DNA of 63,989 nucleotides, from positions 71,257 to 135,245 of the forward strand of contig JALLOO010000002.1 of NCBI GenBank assembly GCA_027717985.1, in the 5' to 3' direction. Below the pieces are notes generated by a model. That model had not been told where the DNA came from, made no database searches, and was given only the letters and a program-made list of their open reading frames with translations. This document shows positions 5,722 through 61,390 of the stretch, piece by piece (positions within the stretch are counted from its first letter, which is position 1; each line of letters begins with the position of its first letter). Origin of the DNA: Patescibacteria group bacterium AH-259-L05 (GTDB lineage: Bacteria > Patescibacteriota > Patescibacteriia > UBA2591 > UBA6264). The position numbers were made by a program, and so were the translations under genes.

Positions 5722-6270
5722 ATGACCTACTTTTTTATATTAGGCAATAACCCTACTTTGTCAATAGCAGAGATTGTGTGCGTATTGTCTGCAAAAATAA
5801 AAAAACAAAATATAAAAATTCTTTCTCAAGATATATTTATTGTTGAGCTTAATAAAAAGATTGATACCAGTTTGCTCCAAAAGCAATTAGGAGGAACTAT
5901 TAAAATTGGGCAGATTATTAATAACTTCAGTATAGATGATATAAAGAAGGCAGAACAATCATTGGTTAAGCAGATTTTGTCGTTGTTCCCATTAAACAAA
6001 CCAAAAATCTTTTTTGGTTTTAGCATTTATGGGAGAAAAGTAAATATAAAACAGTTGGCTTTGGCAGTAAAGAAGAAATTAAAACAGCAGGGAATTGCTT
6101 CGCGATGGGTAGTATCAAAAGAAAGCGTTCTTTCGTCAGTGGTTGTGCAGAAAAATAAGTTATTAGAACAAGGAGCAGAATTTACATTATTTGTGAACTA
6201 CTCTATCCCTAAAGGGATAAAGCTTCCTGCTTCATCGTCGAGAGTAACCTCTCAACTCCACAAGCGTTGA
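5722..6270 (+). pseudogene. N-terminal (THUMP-like) half of a TRM11-type RNA methyltransferase, interrupted
   Basis: Reading continues into the tnpB-element end (...SIPKGIKLPASSSRVTSQLHKR*); the methyltransferase half lies at 8169-9035. Confidence 0.6.
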
Positions 6271-7426
6271 TTCCTGTAGTCCCTACAGTATGTAAACTTA
6301 AGGCAAGAATGTTTCTAGCTGCGTTAACATCTCTATCTATGGTCAAAGCACATTCAGGACAGTGGTGAATTCTGACAGCTAAAGATTTAGGAACTGTTTT
6401 TTGACAATTGCTGCATATTTGAGATGTATTTTGGGGATTCACTCCTTGCGTCCACATACTAGCTTCTTCCGCTTTGTATGTAAGCATGTGCAGGAATTTG
6501 CCCCAGGCAGCATCAGATATTGATTTTGCTAAATATTTGTTTTTAACCAAACCTTTGATATTTAATTTTTCAAAGGCAATGAGCTGAAAGGCATTGACCA
6601 GCGATGTGCTTAGTTTGTGTAAAAAATCTACTCTTTGATTATTGATTCTTTCGTGTAATTGAGCCACTTTTAATCTTGATTTACTTCTGTTCTTGCTTTT
6701 AAGTTTTTTTCTTGAATGCTTTCTTTGGATTTGAGCTAATTTTTTTTCTGATGCTTTTAAATATCTCGGATTATGTATATTTTCCCCTTGAGACGTGGTT
6801 ACAAAACTGTTTAATCCTACATCAATTCCAATCATATTTTCATTTTTGATATTCTTGATTCGTGGTTTATCTGGTAATTTTTGATTAATCTCAACTGAAA
6901 AACACGCATACCATTTATTAGTTAAAGTTCTTCTAATAATTAAGGTTTTAATATTTCTTTTAATTGGTCGATGGAGTATAATTTTAAGAGAACCAATTTT
7001 GGAAAGATTAAGTTTGTTGGTCTTTACTTCAAATCCTGATTGTGGATATATCAAACTATCATATCTATTTTTTCCTTTAAATCGAGGATATCCTGGCTTT
7101 TTGTTTTTCCCTTTCTTGTTTTCTGCTACTCTTCTAAAAAAGTTTTGAAACGATTTGTCTAAACGTCTGGGTACATCTTGTAATACTTGAGAATATATTT
7201 GATTTAATTCCGGTTTTTGTTTTTTAAGCTCTGGTATTTGTTTAATTTGATCAAAGCATGTTATTTTTGTTTTATCCTTTTCATACGCATCTTTTTTTTG
7301 TTCTAGAAAATGATTGTACAGCCAGCAACAAGAACAAAGCCAGGATTCAAGTAAGGCTTGTTGAGCCTTAGTTGGATATAGTCTGAATTTGTAAGTTCGT
7401 TTTAGCATATTTTTATTCATTAATCA
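6193..7426 (-). mobile_element. IS200/IS605-group element with tnpB only (IS1341-like); bounds approximate
   Basis: tnpB plus end hairpin CTATCCCTAAAGGGATA next to GTGAACTA; no tnpA seen. Confidence 0.65.
6209..7420 (-). CDS. tnpB: TnpB RNA-guided endonuclease (start could be 7408)
   Basis: MIGIDVGLNSFVTT, LIAFEKLNIKGL, zinc ribbon CSNCQ...HHCPEC, TIDRDVNAARNI. Confidence 0.92.
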   Translation of the reverse strand: MNKNMLKRTYKFRLYPTKAQQALLESWLCSCCWLYNHFLEQKKDAYEKDKTKITCFDQIKQIPELKKQKPELNQIYSQVLQDVPRRLDKSFQNFFRRVAENKKGKNKKPGYPRFKGKNRYDSLIYPQSGFEVKTNKLNLSKIGSLKIILHRPIKRNIKTLIIRRTLTNKWYACFSVEINQKLPDKPRIKNIKNENMIGIDVGLNSFVTTSQGENIHNPRYLKASEKKLAQIQRKHSRKKLKSKNRSKSRLKVAQLHERINNQRVDFLHKLSTSLVNAFQLIAFEKLNIKGLVKNKYLAKSISDAAWGKFLHMLTYKAEEASMWTQGVNPQNTSQICSNCQKTVPKSLAVRIHHCPECALTIDRDVNAARNILALSLHTVGTTGINACGVERLLSTMKQEALSL

Positions 7427-8168: not shown

Positions 8169-9035
8169 ATGTTAGAGTATAACAAGAAAATGCGAGCTTT
8201 CATCTCGTCCCCTAAAGGGGGCAGGTTTTCTCGCTCGCGATATATAGAAAAGGATAAAGTATTGCTTGGCAAAACACTCACATGCCAGGAATTTGAAAAA
8301 TATAGTTTTTATGATTTTTCTCGCCCGTATCGGGCAATTGAAAAAGGAATGATGCCGCCAAAGTTAGCAAAGATTATGATTAATTTAGCCGGTGCAGGAG
8401 AAGATTCAGCCCTTTTAGATCCGTTTTGCGGCTCAGGAACAATCCTACAGCAAGCATTGCTTATGGGGTATACAAAAGTGATAGGGACAGATATAGATCA
8501 GAGAGCAGTGGACAATTCTAAAAAAAATTTACAATGGTTAGCGCCCTCCTTGTCATCCCGCATCCCTTTGTCATCCCGCACGAATGTGCGGGATGACAAA
8601 GAAGGGACGTCATCCCGAGTACAACAAGGGGTCTCATTATATAGATGTGATGCCCAAGAGTTGAGCAAGAAAATACCACAACATTCTATTGATGCAATTA
8701 TTACTGAGCCATATCTTGGCCCGCTTAAAATTGGAAATTTAAAAGCAGAAATTAAAATTTTATCAGATTTATATATTAATGCTTTTAAATCGTTTAAAAA
8801 AGTTTTAAAATCAGATGGACGAGTGGTTATTATTTTTCCCGTATTCAGTATAAAAAATAAATTACATTTTTTACCAATTTTAGATACGCTCAAAAAAATC
8901 GGTTGGCAAATACGAATGTCATTACCTCAATATTTATTAGATAATCCAGTTATTAAAACTACGAGTCGCCAGTCCATTATATATTCTCGACCAAATCAAA
9001 AGATTTTACGCGAAATTTTAATTTTTATATTATGA
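8169..9035 (+). CDS. C-terminal methyltransferase half of a TRM11-type RNA methyltransferase
   Basis: LLGKTLTCQEFEKYSFYDFSRPYRAIEKGMMPPKLAKIMINLAG, LLDPFCGSGTILQQAL, TEPYLG. Confidence 0.8.
   Translation: MLEYNKKMRAFISSPKGGRFSRSRYIEKDKVLLGKTLTCQEFEKYSFYDFSRPYRAIEKGMMPPKLAKIMINLAGAGEDSALLDPFCGSGTILQQALLMGYTKVIGTDIDQRAVDNSKKNLQWLAPSLSSRIPLSSRTNVRDDKEGTSSRVQQGVSLYRCDAQELSKKIPQHSIDAIITEPYLGPLKIGNLKAEIKILSDLYINAFKSFKKVLKSDGRVVIIFPVFSIKNKLHFLPILDTLKKIGWQIRMSLPQYLLDNPVIKTTSRQSIIYSRPNQKILREILIFIL
8548..8632. repeat. Palindromic repeat in frame within the methyltransferase
   Basis: TTTGTCATCCCGCAC-GAAT-GTGCGGGATGACAAA, encoding LSSRTNVRDDK. Confidence 0.85.
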
Positions 9036-11339: not shown

Positions 11340-11660
11340 TTTGTCATTTATTTTTTTGTCATCCCATACTTCTTTTGTTATCCTACCTTTCCTTGTCATC
11401 CTGCATTTCGTGCGGGATGACAGAAAAAAAGAGTCTCATCCATCTCCTTTTGTCATCCCACTTTTTTTGTTATTAAGGCTCGTGAAGGATCGAGGAATCC
11501 CTTAACAGGCTTTGGCAATAAAAGACTGCTATTGACCACACTATTTTTTTTGTCATTCTTTAGCCTTTTGTCATTCCGCACTTCGGAATGACAAGAAAGG
11601 AAAGTCACGAAATGACAATCCTCCCCCTGTCATTCCTTGCGAGCTATAGACGAGTAAGGA
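11340..11660. repeat. Intergenic array of degenerate TTTGTCAT(C/T)CC repeats
   Basis: Multiple copies, some with full palindromes: cttgtcatcctgcatttcgtgcgggatgacag; tgtcattccgcacttcggaatgaca. Confidence 0.7.
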
Positions 11661-38658: not shown

Positions 38659-39258
38659 TTGTCTATGTTAGCAATTAAATTTTCTCGCAAAGGCAAGAAG
38701 AACCAACCGTTTTTTCGAATTATTGTGTTAGAAAAATCCAAAGATCCATGGGGTGATTTTTTAGAAGATCTTGGCTTTTATAATCCCTTAACAAAAGAGT
38801 GCTCATTAAATGAAAAACGAATAAAGTATTGGATCTCAAATGGCGCTCAGCCAACCGGTTCAGTACATAATTTATTAGTTAATAAAGGAATTATTAAAGC
38901 TGAAAAGGTTAATGTTACGAAGAAAAGGGTTTCGAAGAAAAAAGAAACACTCAAAAAAGCTATGGATAGAAAAGAAGAAAAGAAACCAGACGAAAAAAAG
39001 GAAAAATTAAAGAAGGAGGACAAAGAGAAGGAGACCAAAGAAGAACCCGAAGAAAAGAAACCAGAAGGAAAGTCTAAGGAAGATAAAAAAGCCGCCCCCG
39101 AAGGGGGCGAGCCTCGCCCCGATGTTACATCGAGGCGGGAGGAGAAGAAAGAGGAGAAGAAAGAGGAGAAGAAAGAGGAGAAGAAAGAGGAGAAACTGCC
39201 TAAAAAAGAAGCAAAGGAGGAGAAAAAAGAAGAGGGGGGAAAAGAGGTGGAAAAGTAA
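38659..39258 (+). CDS. rpsP: 30S ribosomal protein S16 with long charged repeat tail
   Basis: MLAIKFSRKGKKNQPFFRIIVLEKSKDPWGDFLEDLGFYNPL; tail of KEE/EKK repeats. Confidence 0.92.
   Translation: MSMLAIKFSRKGKKNQPFFRIIVLEKSKDPWGDFLEDLGFYNPLTKECSLNEKRIKYWISNGAQPTGSVHNLLVNKGIIKAEKVNVTKKRVSKKKETLKKAMDRKEEKKPDEKKEKLKKEDKEKETKEEPEEKKPEGKSKEDKKAAPEGGEPRPDVTSRREEKKEEKKEEKKEEKKEEKLPKKEAKEEKKEEGGKEVEK
39135..39195 (+). repeat. 12-bp tandem repeat (gaggagaagaaa) in rpsP tail
   Basis: About 5 direct copies encoding EEKK. Confidence 0.85.
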
Positions 39259-39759: not shown

Positions 39760-40527
39760 ATGCAGTTTGATATCATTACTATTTTTCCTGATATATTTGA
39801 TCTTTATTTTAACACCTCAATAATTAAAAGGGCACAGGAAAAGAAATTAGTTGTCATCAAAATCCATGATCTTCGCAAATGGACTGCTGATAAGCATAAG
39901 ACTGTTGATGATCGACCGTATGGCGGGGGCCCGGGCATGATTTTAAAAGTCAGGCCGATATATGAAGGATTAAAAAAAATCAAAGCAGCTTCTCCCTTGT
40001 CATCCCGCGCTTCGCGCGGGGAGACAAAAAAAGAAGTGTCATCCCGAGCGAAGCAAGGGACAAACGTTATTTTATTGACGCCGAAAGGCAAACAGTTTGA
40101 TCAGAAGATGGCTAAAAGATTTTCAAAGTTAGATAGAGTAATTTTAGTATGTGGAAGATATGAAGGCGTTGATGAACGAGTAACAAAATTTATTGATGAA
40201 CAGATTTCAGTTGGTCCTTATGTTTTGACTGGTGGAGAGCTTCCTGCTATGATAATGATTGATACAATTACACGGTTAATTCCCGGTGTCATTAGCCCTG
40301 AATCCTTACAAGAAGAAACTTTTTCTTTCAGAAAAATCAAGAAAAATAAATTAGAAATTAAAAATTCGGAATTAGAAATTTTTCATGAGTATCCACAATA
40401 TACTCGTCCAGAAGTCTTTACATATAAAGATACATCTGGTAGAATAAAATCGTTCAAAGTGCCAAACGTTTTATTGTCAGGTAATCATAAAAAAATAAAG
40501 CAGTGGCGCGAAAAATACGTTCGTTGA
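39760..40527 (+). CDS. trmD: tRNA (guanine-N1)-methyltransferase with in-frame repeat insertion
   Basis: MQFDIITIFPDIFDLYFNTS, DDRPYGGGPGMILKV, VCGRYEGVDERV, GPYVLTGGELPAM. Confidence 0.93.
   Translation: MQFDIITIFPDIFDLYFNTSIIKRAQEKKLVVIKIHDLRKWTADKHKTVDDRPYGGGPGMILKVRPIYEGLKKIKAASPLSSRASRGETKKEVSSRAKQGTNVILLTPKGKQFDQKMAKRFSKLDRVILVCGRYEGVDERVTKFIDEQISVGPYVLTGGELPAMIMIDTITRLIPGVISPESLQEETFSFRKIKKNKLEIKNSELEIFHEYPQYTRPEVFTYKDTSGRIKSFKVPNVLLSGNHKKIKQWREKYVR
39991..40071. repeat. Palindromic repeat in frame within trmD
   Basis: cccttgtcatcccgcgcttcgcgcggggagacaaaaaaagaagtgtcatcccgagcgaagcaaggg. Confidence 0.85.
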
Positions 40528-40561: not shown

Positions 40562-41190
40562 TTTACCCTTCAAAATTTTTTTGAAATTTAGAAGGGTGAA
40601 CCAATCTATTCTTATAATTCCTAAGAGCGAATCAAATGAAAAAATTTATTTTTACATTTGTGAGCCCTGACGGAATTTCAAATTTTACTTAATATATCAA
40701 ATTCTTGTTAAGAGAGTTTGATCCTAGCTCAGGATGAACGCTGGCGGCGTGTCTAAGGCATGCAAGTCGAACGGTCCGATTCGTCGGATAGTGGCAGACG
40801 GGTGAGTAACACATTGGTAATCTACCGGAAAGTGGGGAATAACCTTGAGAAATCAGGGCTAATACCGCATGTGTTCTAATGTTGTTTACATTAGAATAAA
40901 GGCCGCAAGGTCGCTTTCTGAGGAGCCTATGGCCCATCAGGTTGTTGGTAGGGTAATGGCCTACCAAGCCAATAACGGGTAGCAGGTGTGAGAGCACGAC
41001 CTGCCTCATTGGGACTGAAACACTGCCCAATCTCCTACGGGGGACTGCAGTCAAGAATCTTCCTCAATGGCCGAAAGGCTGAAGGAGCGACGCCGCATGC
41101 AGGATGAAGCTCTTCGGAGTGTAAACTGCTTTTCTGGGAGAAGAACCTTCGGGTGACGGTACCTCAGGAATAAGCCGCCGCTAACTTCGT

Positions 41191-41573
41191 GCAAGTAATT
41201 TTTGTCTTATCAAAGAGCGCGACTTCTTCGAGTAATCGAAGTTGAAAACTCAGCTTATATGCTGGAACCCTATAAGGATTGCTGCGTTTCGCATAGAGCG
41301 AAATACCTTATGGGCAATCAGCAGGGAAGTTGTCCCGATTAGTCGGGATTAACCCCTCAGAGACTGATTCACTAAATAATATTTAGGTGAAGAGATGACA
41401 GGTACCAAATAATTTGGATTTAAACTGTTATCATACGCTGAGGGTCCTTTATAATCGAAGCGAGGGTCAAAAGAAAAATTTATTTTTCTTTTGCGCCCGA
41501 ACGAAGATTTCAAGCTTTGCTTATTTAGATAAAGGATCATGAGATAGTCCGTAATCGATATAGATCGATACAG
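41191..41573 (+). other. Group I-like intron in 16S (near E. coli 516-520), boundaries within a few nt
   Basis: Interrupts aacttcgtg/ccagcagctgcgg; Q-like aatcagcagggaag, R-like cctcagagactga, S-like atgagatagtcc. Confidence 0.75.
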
Positions 41574-41952
41574 CCAGCAGCTGCGGTAAGACGAAGGCGG
41601 CAAGCGTTATCCGGATTTACTGGGCGTAAAGGGTGCGTAGGCGGTCTGACAAGTTTCTGGTTAAAGTCCTTTGCTCAACATTGGAAATGCTGGAAAAACT
41701 GTCAGACTAGAGGCCGGGAGAGGCAAGCGGAATTGCCGGTGTAGGGGTTAAATCCGTTAATATCGGCAGGAACACCAAATGCGAAGGCAGCTTGCTAGAA
41801 CGGTTCTGACGCTGAGGCACGAAAGCGTGGGGAGTGAAGAGGATTAGATACCCTCGTAATCCACGCCGTAAACGCTGGATGCTGGACATTGGAAGTGTCG
41901 ACCCTTTCAGTGTCGCATAAAAAAGCTAACGCGTTAAGCATCCCGCCTGGGA

Positions 41953-41984
<32 letters not shown>

Positions 41985-42113
41985 AGACGGGAGTTCGCAC
42001 AAGCGGTGGACCATGTGGTTCAATTCGACGATAAGCGAAAAACCTTACCAGGGCTTGACATGCTAGAAGTACCCTGATAGAAACATCGGGGGACCGTCAA
42101 ATCGGAGTCTAGT

Positions 42114-42145
<32 letters not shown>

Positions 42146-42241
42146 GGTGACGTGTACCCTTAAGTGGGGAAACGAGCGGAACCCCTACTGCCAGTTACTA
42201 ACGGGTAAAAGCCGAGGACTCTGGCAGGACTGCCGGTGATG

Positions 42242-42273
<32 letters not shown>

Positions 42274-42468
42274 GCATGGCCCTTATGCCCTGGGCGACAC
42301 ACGTGGTACAATGGCCGGTACAAAGGGTTGCTAAGCCGTAAGGTGGAGCTAATCCCATCAAAGCCGGTCCCAGTTCGGATTGAGGTCTGAAATTCGACCT
42401 CATGAAGCTGGAATCGCTAGTAACCGTGTATCAGCACGGCACGGTGAATACGTTCTCGAACTTTGTAC

Positions 42469-43467
42469 TCGGGTGCCTTGCAGCTCTAAAAGCTAATCCG
42501 TTGAAATCGGATCAAGAAGACTATAGACTTTTTGAAGCGAAATTGCAGTCCCGACGCGCGAGTGATCGGGATGAAGGGCAAAAGTAGCATTTTCCAGCTT
42601 GAGTTTTCGTTGAGGCTTTATGTATTGACGACCCTGCGAGTACATGGGGAAGTTATCTATAGATGAAGTACATAAAGTATAGAAGACCAAGATGGAAAAG
42701 AAATGTTTCTAGAGTGACCAAGGGAGATCTCGTGAAGTCCTCGGAATTTATCTTGACATGACTTTAAAATGGTAGTAAACTAAAACCGAGGTATGAATAA
42801 AAGTAATTTTATTTCAAAAACTTCGCGAGAAGTCAGCAGAGCTCATAGTACTCATCGAAATCCTTATAAAAGAAATTTGAGACTTAAGGATCCAGTGGGG
42901 AAGGAGCAAATCCAAGGAAAAGAAGAATTAAATCCTTATTATATAATTGGCTTTATTGAAGGAGAGGGATCATTTTATGTAGGCATCGGCAGACATAAAA
43001 CACTCCGAAGAAAAATAGATATTAGACCCGCATTTACTATTGAACTTCGTGCAGATGATCGTGAGATTCTTGAGCGCATTCTTATTACAATCGGATGCGG
43101 CAAGATATATGATTGTTCATACGAGAGATATGGATGGTATCCGCATGTAAAGTATAAGATTGGAAGTACAAAGGAAATGAAAGAGTTTTTGATTCCTTTT
43201 CTAGATAGATATCCTTTGCAGGCAAAAAAGGCAGAAGTTTACGCTTTATTTCGAGAGATTGTTTTAATGGTTCGCAGAAAAGAACACCTTACTGATAAAG
43301 GATTTAAGAGAATTCAGTATTTACGTAATGAAATGCGTAAGTTCGGCAAAAAGCATAATTATAAAAGGGATTTTAATCCTTCCTTGGAAACCGCCAGGAT
43401 ACGGGAAAACCGTTCGTCCGGTGGTGTGGGACAAAAGATAAAGTAATTTACTTATTGATCCCAATAC
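42469..43467 (+). other. Intron in 16S (near E. coli 1390) encoding a LAGLIDADG protein
   Basis: Interrupts ctttgtac/gcccgtcaag; P-like aattgcagtccc and Q-like accctgcgag pair GCAG/CTGC; candidate S gtgaagtcct. Confidence 0.75.
42793..43446 (+). CDS. LAGLIDADG homing endonuclease (intron-encoded)
   Basis: NPYYIIGFIEGEGSFYVGIG...FTIELRADDREILERILITIGCGKIY. Confidence 0.88.
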   Translation: MNKSNFISKTSREVSRAHSTHRNPYKRNLRLKDPVGKEQIQGKEELNPYYIIGFIEGEGSFYVGIGRHKTLRRKIDIRPAFTIELRADDREILERILITIGCGKIYDCSYERYGWYPHVKYKIGSTKEMKEFLIPFLDRYPLQAKKAEVYALFREIVLMVRRKEHLTDKGFKRIQYLRNEMRKFGKKHNYKRDFNPSLETARIRENRSSGGVGQKIK

Positions 43468-47828: not shown

Positions 47829-47834
47829 TTTTTT

Positions 47835-47985
47835 GTCATCCCCCTCTTGTCATCTCGCCCCTCTTGTCATCTCGCCCCTCTTGTCATCTCGCCCCTCTTG
47901 TCATCTCGCGCCTCTTGTCATCTCGCGCCCCCCTGTCATTCCGCACGGATGTGCGGAAAGACAAAGAAAGAGAGTGCGGAATGAC
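47835..47985. repeat. Tandem cctcttgtcatctcgcc repeats plus palindromic repeat
   Basis: About 6 tandem units of about 18 bp, then tgtcattccgcacggatgtgcggaaagaca. Confidence 0.8.
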
Positions 47986-48134
47986 AAAGAAAGGGCGCTA
48001 TTCCTCGGTTAAAAGCTGAGGAACTTTTGTTTATTTGAGGAGTTTTCCACAGGTAATTTTGACGGGGTTGACAACTTTTTTATATATATTATAGTATAAG
48101 TGTTGTTCATTTCACAAAGAGAGGAGGACATGTT

Positions 48135-50324: not shown

Positions 50325-51053
50325 ATGGTCAATCTTGACATTTTGGATAAAATCAATATACTATACGAAAGTAGGGATTTTTTAATTTTAGATAAACCAT
50401 CGGGGTTGCTCATTCATCCAACAAAACATCAAAAAACAAATACCTTAGTTGGTTGGTTAGTTAAAAAATATCCTGAAATAAAAAATGTAGGGCAAAGAGA
50501 GCGTCCAGGCATTGTTCATAGATTAGATAAAGATGTTTCTGGGTTGATGGTTGTAGCACGAACGCAGAAGATGTATGATTTTTTAGTGTTTCAGTTTAAG
50601 CAGGGAAGAGTAAAAAAAGAATATATAGCTTTAGTTCATGGAAAGCCGCCTGAAATACATGGTTTTATTGAAACGCCAATTGGGAGAACAAAAAAGGGAA
50701 AACTCGTAGCAGTTATAAGCAGAAAAAAATTAAAATTTGAAAAACCAGCATTTACGGAGTATCGCGTGATTAAAAAATATAAAGACTGTTCCCTTTTACA
50801 GGTCCGACCTGTCACGGGCAGGACCCATCAAATTAGGTTGCACCTTAAAAGCGTTGGTTGTCCAATCGTTGGAGACTCCCTCTTGTCATCCCGAGCGAGC
50901 CGCAAGGTGAGCGAGGGATCTCATATACATCCAAACCGTATTTTTTTACACGCCTCGTATTTAGGGTTTTATGATCTAGGTAAGCAATGGCAAGAATTTC
51001 AAAGCGATTTACCTCAAGAATTAAAAAACTTTTTAAGTATTTTACAAAACTAG
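50325..51053 (+). CDS. RluA/RluD-family pseudouridine synthase with in-frame repeat insertion
   Basis: DKPSGLLIHPTKH, PGIVHRLDKDVSGLMVVART, RTHQIRLHLKSVGCPIVGDSL, HASYLGF. Confidence 0.9.
   Translation: MVNLDILDKINILYESRDFLILDKPSGLLIHPTKHQKTNTLVGWLVKKYPEIKNVGQRERPGIVHRLDKDVSGLMVVARTQKMYDFLVFQFKQGRVKKEYIALVHGKPPEIHGFIETPIGRTKKGKLVAVISRKKLKFEKPAFTEYRVIKKYKDCSLLQVRPVTGRTHQIRLHLKSVGCPIVGDSLLSSRASRKVSEGSHIHPNRIFLHASYLGFYDLGKQWQEFQSDLPQELKNFLSILQN
50876..50925. repeat. Repeat related to the gtcatccc family, in frame in the pseudouridine synthase gene
   Basis: ctccctcttgtcatcccgagcgagccgcaaggtgagcgagggatctc, encoding SLLSSRASRKVSEGS. Confidence 0.7.
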
Positions 51054-60490: not shown

Positions 60491-61390
60491 ATGCTAGAGA
60501 TTTTCCCATATAAACTTGATACCAAGGTTCAGCTCTCTCCTGACAAATTAGGTTTAAATTTTATTCCTGAGAAGGGGAGCGTATTCAACTTTAAACCAGG
60601 TCAGTGGGTTTTTTTATATCTTTACAATACCAGCGGCTCTTTATGGGGTAAGCGGGCATTTTCAGTTTGTTCTGCGCCAACAAATAAAGTGTATATTCAG
60701 CTCGGTATTAAAGTTTCGGGTACATTTACCCGAAGAATGGCAAAAATGAAAACAGGCGAACGTGTGGGAATTTCAGGACCATATGGTTTTTTTACATTTG
60801 AGGAAAAAAAAATGAGAAATACAGTATTTCTCACAGGAGGAATCGGTATTACACCGTTTATGAGCATGATTCGCTATGCAAAAGATAAGAAATTAAAAAA
60901 TAAGCTTACGTTCATCTATAGCAACAGAGATAAAAATGACATTGCTTTTTATAAAGAATTAGAATTACTTTCACAGCAAAATAAAGATTGTAGAGTTATT
61001 TTTACGTTAACGGGTAAGATTCCAGCTTCCCCTCTGTCATCCCGCTCCCCTTTGTCATCCCGCTCCCCTTTGTCATCCCGCTCCCCTTTGTCATCCCGCT
61101 CCCCTCTGTCATCCCGCTCCCCTTTGTCATCCCGCTCCCCTCTGTCATCCCGCTCCCCTCTGTCATCCCGCGCTTCGCGCGGGAAGACAAAAAAAGAAGT
61201 GTCATCCCGTCCTTTATGGGAGGGAGAAAAAGGACGAATAAATGGAACAATGCTGAGAAAATATTGCTTTCCGTATAAGGGAAAATATTTTTTTCTCTGC
61301 GGTCCATTGCCCTTTATGGAGCGTATGGTACAATATCTTAAAAACAGCGGCGTTTCTCAAGAGCATATCAAAATAGAACGGTTTGGATAA
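60491..61390 (+). CDS. Ferredoxin/flavodoxin-NAD(P)+ reductase-like flavoprotein with tandem repeat insertion
   Basis: KPGQWVFLYL, KRAFSVCSAP, VSGTFTRRM, FLTGGIGITPFMSMIRYA, FLCGPLPFMERM. Confidence 0.88.
   Translation: MLEIFPYKLDTKVQLSPDKLGLNFIPEKGSVFNFKPGQWVFLYLYNTSGSLWGKRAFSVCSAPTNKVYIQLGIKVSGTFTRRMAKMKTGERVGISGPYGFFTFEEKKMRNTVFLTGGIGITPFMSMIRYAKDKKLKNKLTFIYSNRDKNDIAFYKELELLSQQNKDCRVIFTLTGKIPASPLSSRSPLSSRSPLSSRSPLSSRSPLSSRSPLSSRSPLSSRSPLSSRASRGKTKKEVSSRPLWEGEKGRINGTMLRKYCFPYKGKYFFLCGPLPFMERMVQYLKNSGVSQEHIKIERFG
61023..61225. repeat. 18-bp tandem array (tcccctttgtcatcccgc) plus palindrome, in frame inside reductase gene
   Basis: Eight SPLSSR units, then SSRASRGKTKKEVSSRPLWEGEKG. Confidence 0.92.

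Follow-up and report, generated by a model that had tools for sequence, protein, structure and literature searches.

Protein-coding palindromes have been regarded as typical of Rickettsia and a few of its relatives, with scattered cases among REPs elsewhere. In Rickettsia, for which in-frame palindromes are known (PMC10969869), the palindromic elements (RPEs) are short and dispersed; some lie between genes, and others are set in frame into numerous unrelated protein-coding genes (for reviews see PMC10969869 and PMC3733652). For Wolbachia, PMC4224334 describes WPE-like inserts in addA, addB and priA. A further group, the CGTC-tagged REPs, which include a TGTC variant of the tag and a stem that starts with AT, occupies intergenic DNA and also genes, among them repair genes and those for tRNA synthetases (Di Nocera et al. 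2013, PMC3733652). Their hallmarks are an unpaired CGTC or TGTC tag, an unpaired 3-bp CCA tail, a stem of 8-9 bp with A-T and T-A as its first pairs, and a loop of 4-5 nt; clusters are rare, head-to-head dimers predominate, and there is no dedicated transposase (PMC3733652).

We analysed a stretch of 63,989 nucleotides (the window) from Patescibacteria group bacterium AH-259-L05, the assembly of which has 63 contigs and is 77.5% complete, and compared its elements with those of the sole congener, Patescibacteria group bacterium AH-259-L07, for which the genome is likewise incomplete. Like RPEs, and RPE-4 and RPE-6 especially, the palindromes described here are dispersed, with copies in intergenic DNA as well as in-frame copies in protein genes that have no relation to one another. 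One Rickettsia locus (L093) has the same TTGTCATCCCG arm with the LSSR reading; the arm motif is the only thing in common, and the ten RPE sequence families were not compared. Unlike RPEs, the present elements are found in Patescibacteria rather than Rickettsia, have near-symmetric arms, form coding head-to-tail arrays, the largest with up to 12 units, and occupy many core informational enzymes. They resemble the Wolbachia palindromic elements in that palindromes are inserted into functioning genes in frame and introduce no premature stop, and differ from them in lineage and in the tandem amplification of arms, which PMC4224334 does not describe in its passage on these inserts. With coding minisatellites (VNTRs) they share head-to-tail units of 15-30 bp, local homogenisation, copy change between relatives and, in genes, spacing in multiples of three (3n), whereas here a dispersed palindromic element seeds the arrays, and does so at many loci simultaneously. 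No report of such elements in Patescibacteria or the CPR was found in a search confined to open-access literature. In-frame palindromes as such are already known, both as RPEs of Rickettsia and as intragenic REPs. What appears to be new is the lineage, together with the growth of half-palindromes into coding minisatellites within essential genes.

The in-frame insert of a reductase gene

The gene encodes an FNR-type FAD/NAD-binding reductase of 299 aa (60491-61390, forward strand), as supported by Pfam matches to NAD_binding_1 (9e-14) and FAD_binding_6 (2.8e-07) and by orthologue alignment. Its frame is open throughout and reads KIPA-(SPLSSR)8-ASRGKTKKEVSSRP-LWEGEKGRI...FLCGPLPFMERM, the insert-border region also including EVSSRPLWEGEK. 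The original prediction placed at 61023-61225 an 18-bp unit repeated in frame about eight times and running into a full palindrome, and both the array and the palindrome were confirmed; the insert proper is narrower, at 186 nt or 62 codons (61028-61213, forward strand). It begins with eight head-to-tail 18-bp arms of consensus TCCCCTYTGTCATCCCGC, which read (SPLSSR)8 in translation (61028-61171, forward strand) and for which Tandem Repeats Finder gives a period of 18, 8.0 copies, a 96% match and a score of 260, the highest of any tandem array in the window. The last unit overlaps the near-perfect palindrome TGTCATCCCGCGCTTCGCGCGGGAAGACA (61161-61189, forward strand), which has a predicted RNA fold of -21.2 kcal/mol (z about -5.8, with 0 of 200 shuffles equal to it), and a single trailing arm, TGTCATCCCG, is located at 61200-61209 on the same strand. 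The repeat unit, which had itself been called a palindrome, is actually the left half, or arm, of one.

Orthologues that carried this segment as conserved sequence would have refuted the prediction, but the 62-residue insertion is missing in all nine aligned relatives (29-49% identity). The insertion point lies between the strand end ...FTLTGKIP and the motif WEGEKGRI, where the nearest relative in the alignment has KVPFFWQGEKKRI. The insert is predicted to be a disordered loop between folded flanks, residues 183-236 of the AlphaFold model mostly having pLDDT <50 and the flanking domains >90. No match to the reductase was found in the incomplete genome of AH-259-L07.

The insert had been treated as a single case, whereas about 90 clusters of the same family, this one included, are present in the roughly 270 kb of this genome that were examined. 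That survey was drawn from stretches around element matches and is thus biased towards the element, with the exception of the window, which was not so selected and contains the element in four genes and in three places between genes. Besides the reductase gene, the coding copies comprise an in-frame element of two palindromes, SPLSSRASRGETKKEVSSRAKQGTN, in trmD (gene 39760-40527, element 39991-40065, forward strand), at a loop that six relatives have only in short form; a single in-frame element in a length-variable loop of an RluA/RluD-family pseudouridine synthase gene (gene 50325-51053, element 50883-50923, forward strand); and an in-frame element in a UPF0020/TIGR01177-type methyltransferase gene (gene 8169-9035, element 8545-8636, forward strand). 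The structure model of TrmD was of low confidence and too weak for use. Between genes we found an array at 47834-47986 (forward strand) with a frame-breaking period of 17 bp (period-17 run 47841-47939, by Tandem Repeats Finder), in contrast to the 18-bp coding arrays, and a cluster of arms and palindromes of the family at 11342-11636 (no strand assigned).

An element family expanded in one genus

The element core is TTGTCATYCCGC, mostly closed by GCGGRATGACAA around a 3-nt GAA/TTC loop. Stems (ATCCCGCAC and others) are most commonly of 9 bp and match those of CGTC REPs, and the modal loop is 3 nt under our stem definition. We found 283 TGTCATYCCG arms in the AH-259-L05 genome (control 2) and 62 in AH-259-L07, with 0-1 in each of four further family members. 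The 12-base form TTGTCATYCCGC occurs 144 times in this genome against 0-10 times in the 191 other genomes of a class-wide sample of 192 (reversed-pattern control about 1). Searching the DNA of the genome that contains the window gave 54 matches with a first query and 127 with a second, and 37 clusters were examined in the congener. The family is thus expanded in one genus of Patescibacteria.

With the CGTC REPs the element shares TGTC, the AT stem start, both genic and intergenic copies and the lack of a known dedicated transposase. In 74 of 82 palindromes, however, its TGTC pairs with a GACA at the opposite end; its right ends are GACA where CGTC REPs have the CCA tail, and head-to-tail clusters are frequent (41 arrays of at least three arms). 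Because the tag is paired, the tail is missing and clusters are common, we have not filed it under CGTC REPs.

Spacers between arms are 95% alike within arrays and 58% alike between arrays, which indicates that arrays expand locally and not through repeated insertion; local duplication of arms is in this way supported by observation. Could the arrays be chimeric or miscounted products of metagenome assembly? With 63 contigs, exact copy numbers of the 18-24 bp arrays may indeed be wrong. Nevertheless, array units carry private variants, coding and non-coding arrays differ in phase, and the family together with its insertion sites in atpG, valS and a rodZ-like gene recurs in the independent assembly of the congener, so that an artefact, which would also have overturned the original prediction, is almost certainly not the explanation.

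Two further readings of the family were set aside. Carriage by viruses was rejected, as no tandem-arm match was found in IMG/VR contigs, and a role as DNA-uptake signal was dropped, the arms being nearly always within palindromes or arrays. Tandem arms are also seen in high-GC loci of other phyla, mostly between genes or in doubtful ORFs.

By Pfam and NCBIfam searches, the in-frame carriers in AH-259-L05 include, in addition to the trmD, pseudouridine synthase and methyltransferase genes described above, alaS, rpoC, uvrC, gatA, topA, valS, murD, atpG, miaA and tsaD, and genes for a GT2 glycosyltransferase, a phosphoglucose-isomerase-type protein, a RodZ-like HTH protein, a DNA-ligase-like N-terminal fragment, a pyrH-like kinase, a penicillin-binding protein, a SpoIID-like protein and an O-antigen-ligase-like protein. 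In the congener, family searches identified rpoC (with the element at a different site), aspS, leuS, rsmA and dnaE, while atpG and valS were paired with their counterparts here through alignment. Since the loci were picked from element matches in a genome of 77.5% completeness, counts of carrier genes for the whole genome are extrapolated. A candidate case of a gene split by the element, comEC, was rejected: its product has 521 aa here and the comEC ORFs of relatives have about 490-545 aa, which makes the element at this locus a gene-end insertion. At comEC (L041:2-1531) the last codons and the stop are supplied by the element, and the metallo-beta-lactamase part is a separate ORF (1571-2452).

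Reading frame and comparison with the congener

Arm spacing is a multiple of three in 46 of 49 cases in validated genes versus 51 of 128 outside ORFs (P = 7e-12, Fisher's exact test), and arrays are wholly 3n in 15 of 18 cases versus 15 of 56 (P = 4e-5). As all three forward frames of the arm are stop-free, an open frame alone does not force 3n spacing there; one reverse-strand frame has a TGA, however, so a mild 3n bias stays in an in-gene set for which an open frame is needed. These results bear on the possibility that the inserts never reach the protein, being removed by ribosome bypass or RNA processing (compare the hairpin byp elements of yeast mitochondria). The palindromes do fold into very stable hairpins, yet bypassed sequence needs neither 3n length nor freedom from stops, and the validated in-gene inserts are open with 3n spacing; bypass or RNA processing of the inserts can therefore scarcely be credited.

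Five reading frames of the element are in use in genes (LSSR 18, RDD 15, VIP 10, GMT 5 and CHP 2), which counts against selection for one peptide. The predominance of LSSR, used in 18 of 30 genes, and the rarity of CHP (2) suggest that peptide chemistry matters somewhat, as would be expected if the peptides were useful, for example as disordered linkers or regulatory tails kept by positive selection. We nevertheless consider this unlikely: the five frames give unrelated peptides at unrelated sites of unrelated proteins, the element is equally common between genes, in any phase, and congeners with empty sites hold the same genes under constraint.

Comparison with AH-259-L07 provides filled and empty sites. 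The alaS insert is of about 104 codons; the gene has about 110 codons more here than in the congener, where the corresponding site is empty between flanks that are 95% identical; topA, gatA, murD and pyrH are likewise filled here, and empty or nearly so, or shorter, there. A 30-bp unit of atpG is present three times here and once in the congener, a direct copy change that fulfils the coding-minisatellite criterion of unit numbers differing between relatives. In valS both genomes have one palindrome with extra arms here, and the RodZ-like gene has remodelled elements in both. Six net length differences (330, 75, 105, 81, 69 and 60 nt) are all 3n. Inverted arms are present, but no clean target-site duplication, a MITE criterion, was seen in the filled/empty comparisons. 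The earlier suggestion of an RPE-like, in-frame element of variable copy number thus holds for the family as a whole, in its empty sites, its fewer copies in the congener and its 3n spacing in genes.

The extreme length of some inserts, as in alaS, might be taken to mark the frames that bear them as decaying genes. Against this, the validated carrier genes have no stops or frameshifts, the carriers are core enzymes, and each one searched for has a single copy in the assembly (77.5% complete). Moreover, pairwise dN/dS is 0.15-0.31 across nine carrier genes; although these values cannot be assigned to the insert-carrying branch, the carrier genes are under purifying selection, and it is very unlikely that the inserts mark pseudogenes.

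Origin, amplification and mobility

We consider it highly probable that selfish palindromes resembling REPs and RPEs insert, that their arms amplify locally through slippage, and that selection keeps those translated copies that are in frame, free of stops and located in loops. The elements would be non-autonomous. Single palindromes would land in genes and between genes, an event visible only as filled/empty pairs, after which arms at each site would duplicate head-to-tail, most simply via replication slippage, which is inferred. Copies that break genes would be lost, and those surviving in genes would be stop-free, 3n in total and confined to surface loops or linkers; this step is supported by the phase and structure results. 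Survivors are inferred to pass through transcription and translation into low-complexity peptides, such as (SPLSSR)n, that are probably disordered, in enzymes that may remain functional despite the insert; neutrality, too, is inferred, and for none of this is there peptide or transcript evidence.

A more far-reaching possibility, which we hold to be doubtful, is that the family generates coding minisatellites across the whole genome. Half-palindromes would then be multiplied head-to-tail by an active process, perhaps through a host or mobile enzyme yet to be identified and not by plain slippage, and several per cent of the proteins, with RNA polymerase, DNA polymerase, tRNA synthetases and topoisomerase among them, would bear fast-changing disordered insertions.

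Insertion followed by selection for tolerated copies, the reading that we prefer, would represent an independent and recent outbreak in the core genes of an ultra-small uncultured bacterium, of which the congener retains empty or smaller sites. It offers a clean system in which to study the load of foreign sequence that essential enzymes can bear, the persistence of selfish DNA where genes are densely packed, and the origin of low-complexity insertions in proteins. Annotators should also take from it the warning that inserts of this kind are genuine sequence rather than errors of frame.

Neither of the two Y1_Tnp matches in this genome is a transposase tied to the element. A RAYT was rejected as mover, the matches being a 61-aa fragment and an ORF (C56), the only one of useful length, that adjoins another palindrome, GTCGGAGATCGGGACTCCG, of which this genome has few copies; in contrast to RAYT-mobilised (GTAG) REPs, the element here is not the repeat found next to that gene. 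The Y1/RAYT-like transposase ORF (L010/C56) has an unrelated palindrome, TCGGAGTCCCGATCTCCGAC, upstream of it and inside its own frame (1475-1503 and 1236-1260).

Several other features of the window were observed. An IS200/IS605-type TnpB-like ORF (6209-7420) adjoins a LexA-like repressor gene. An apparent ribosomal protein S16 gene, just upstream of a KH-domain-like gene and trmD, has in its lysine/glutamate-rich tail a perfect 12-bp tandem repeat, GAGGAGAAGAAA (39139-39194). The 16S rRNA match (40706-42502) is of about 1.8 kb against a model of 1533 positions and contains insertions; just downstream of it, a match to a group II intron D1-D4 model (42792-43446) overlaps the start of a 217-aa ORF (42793-43446) that resembles a homing endonuclease.
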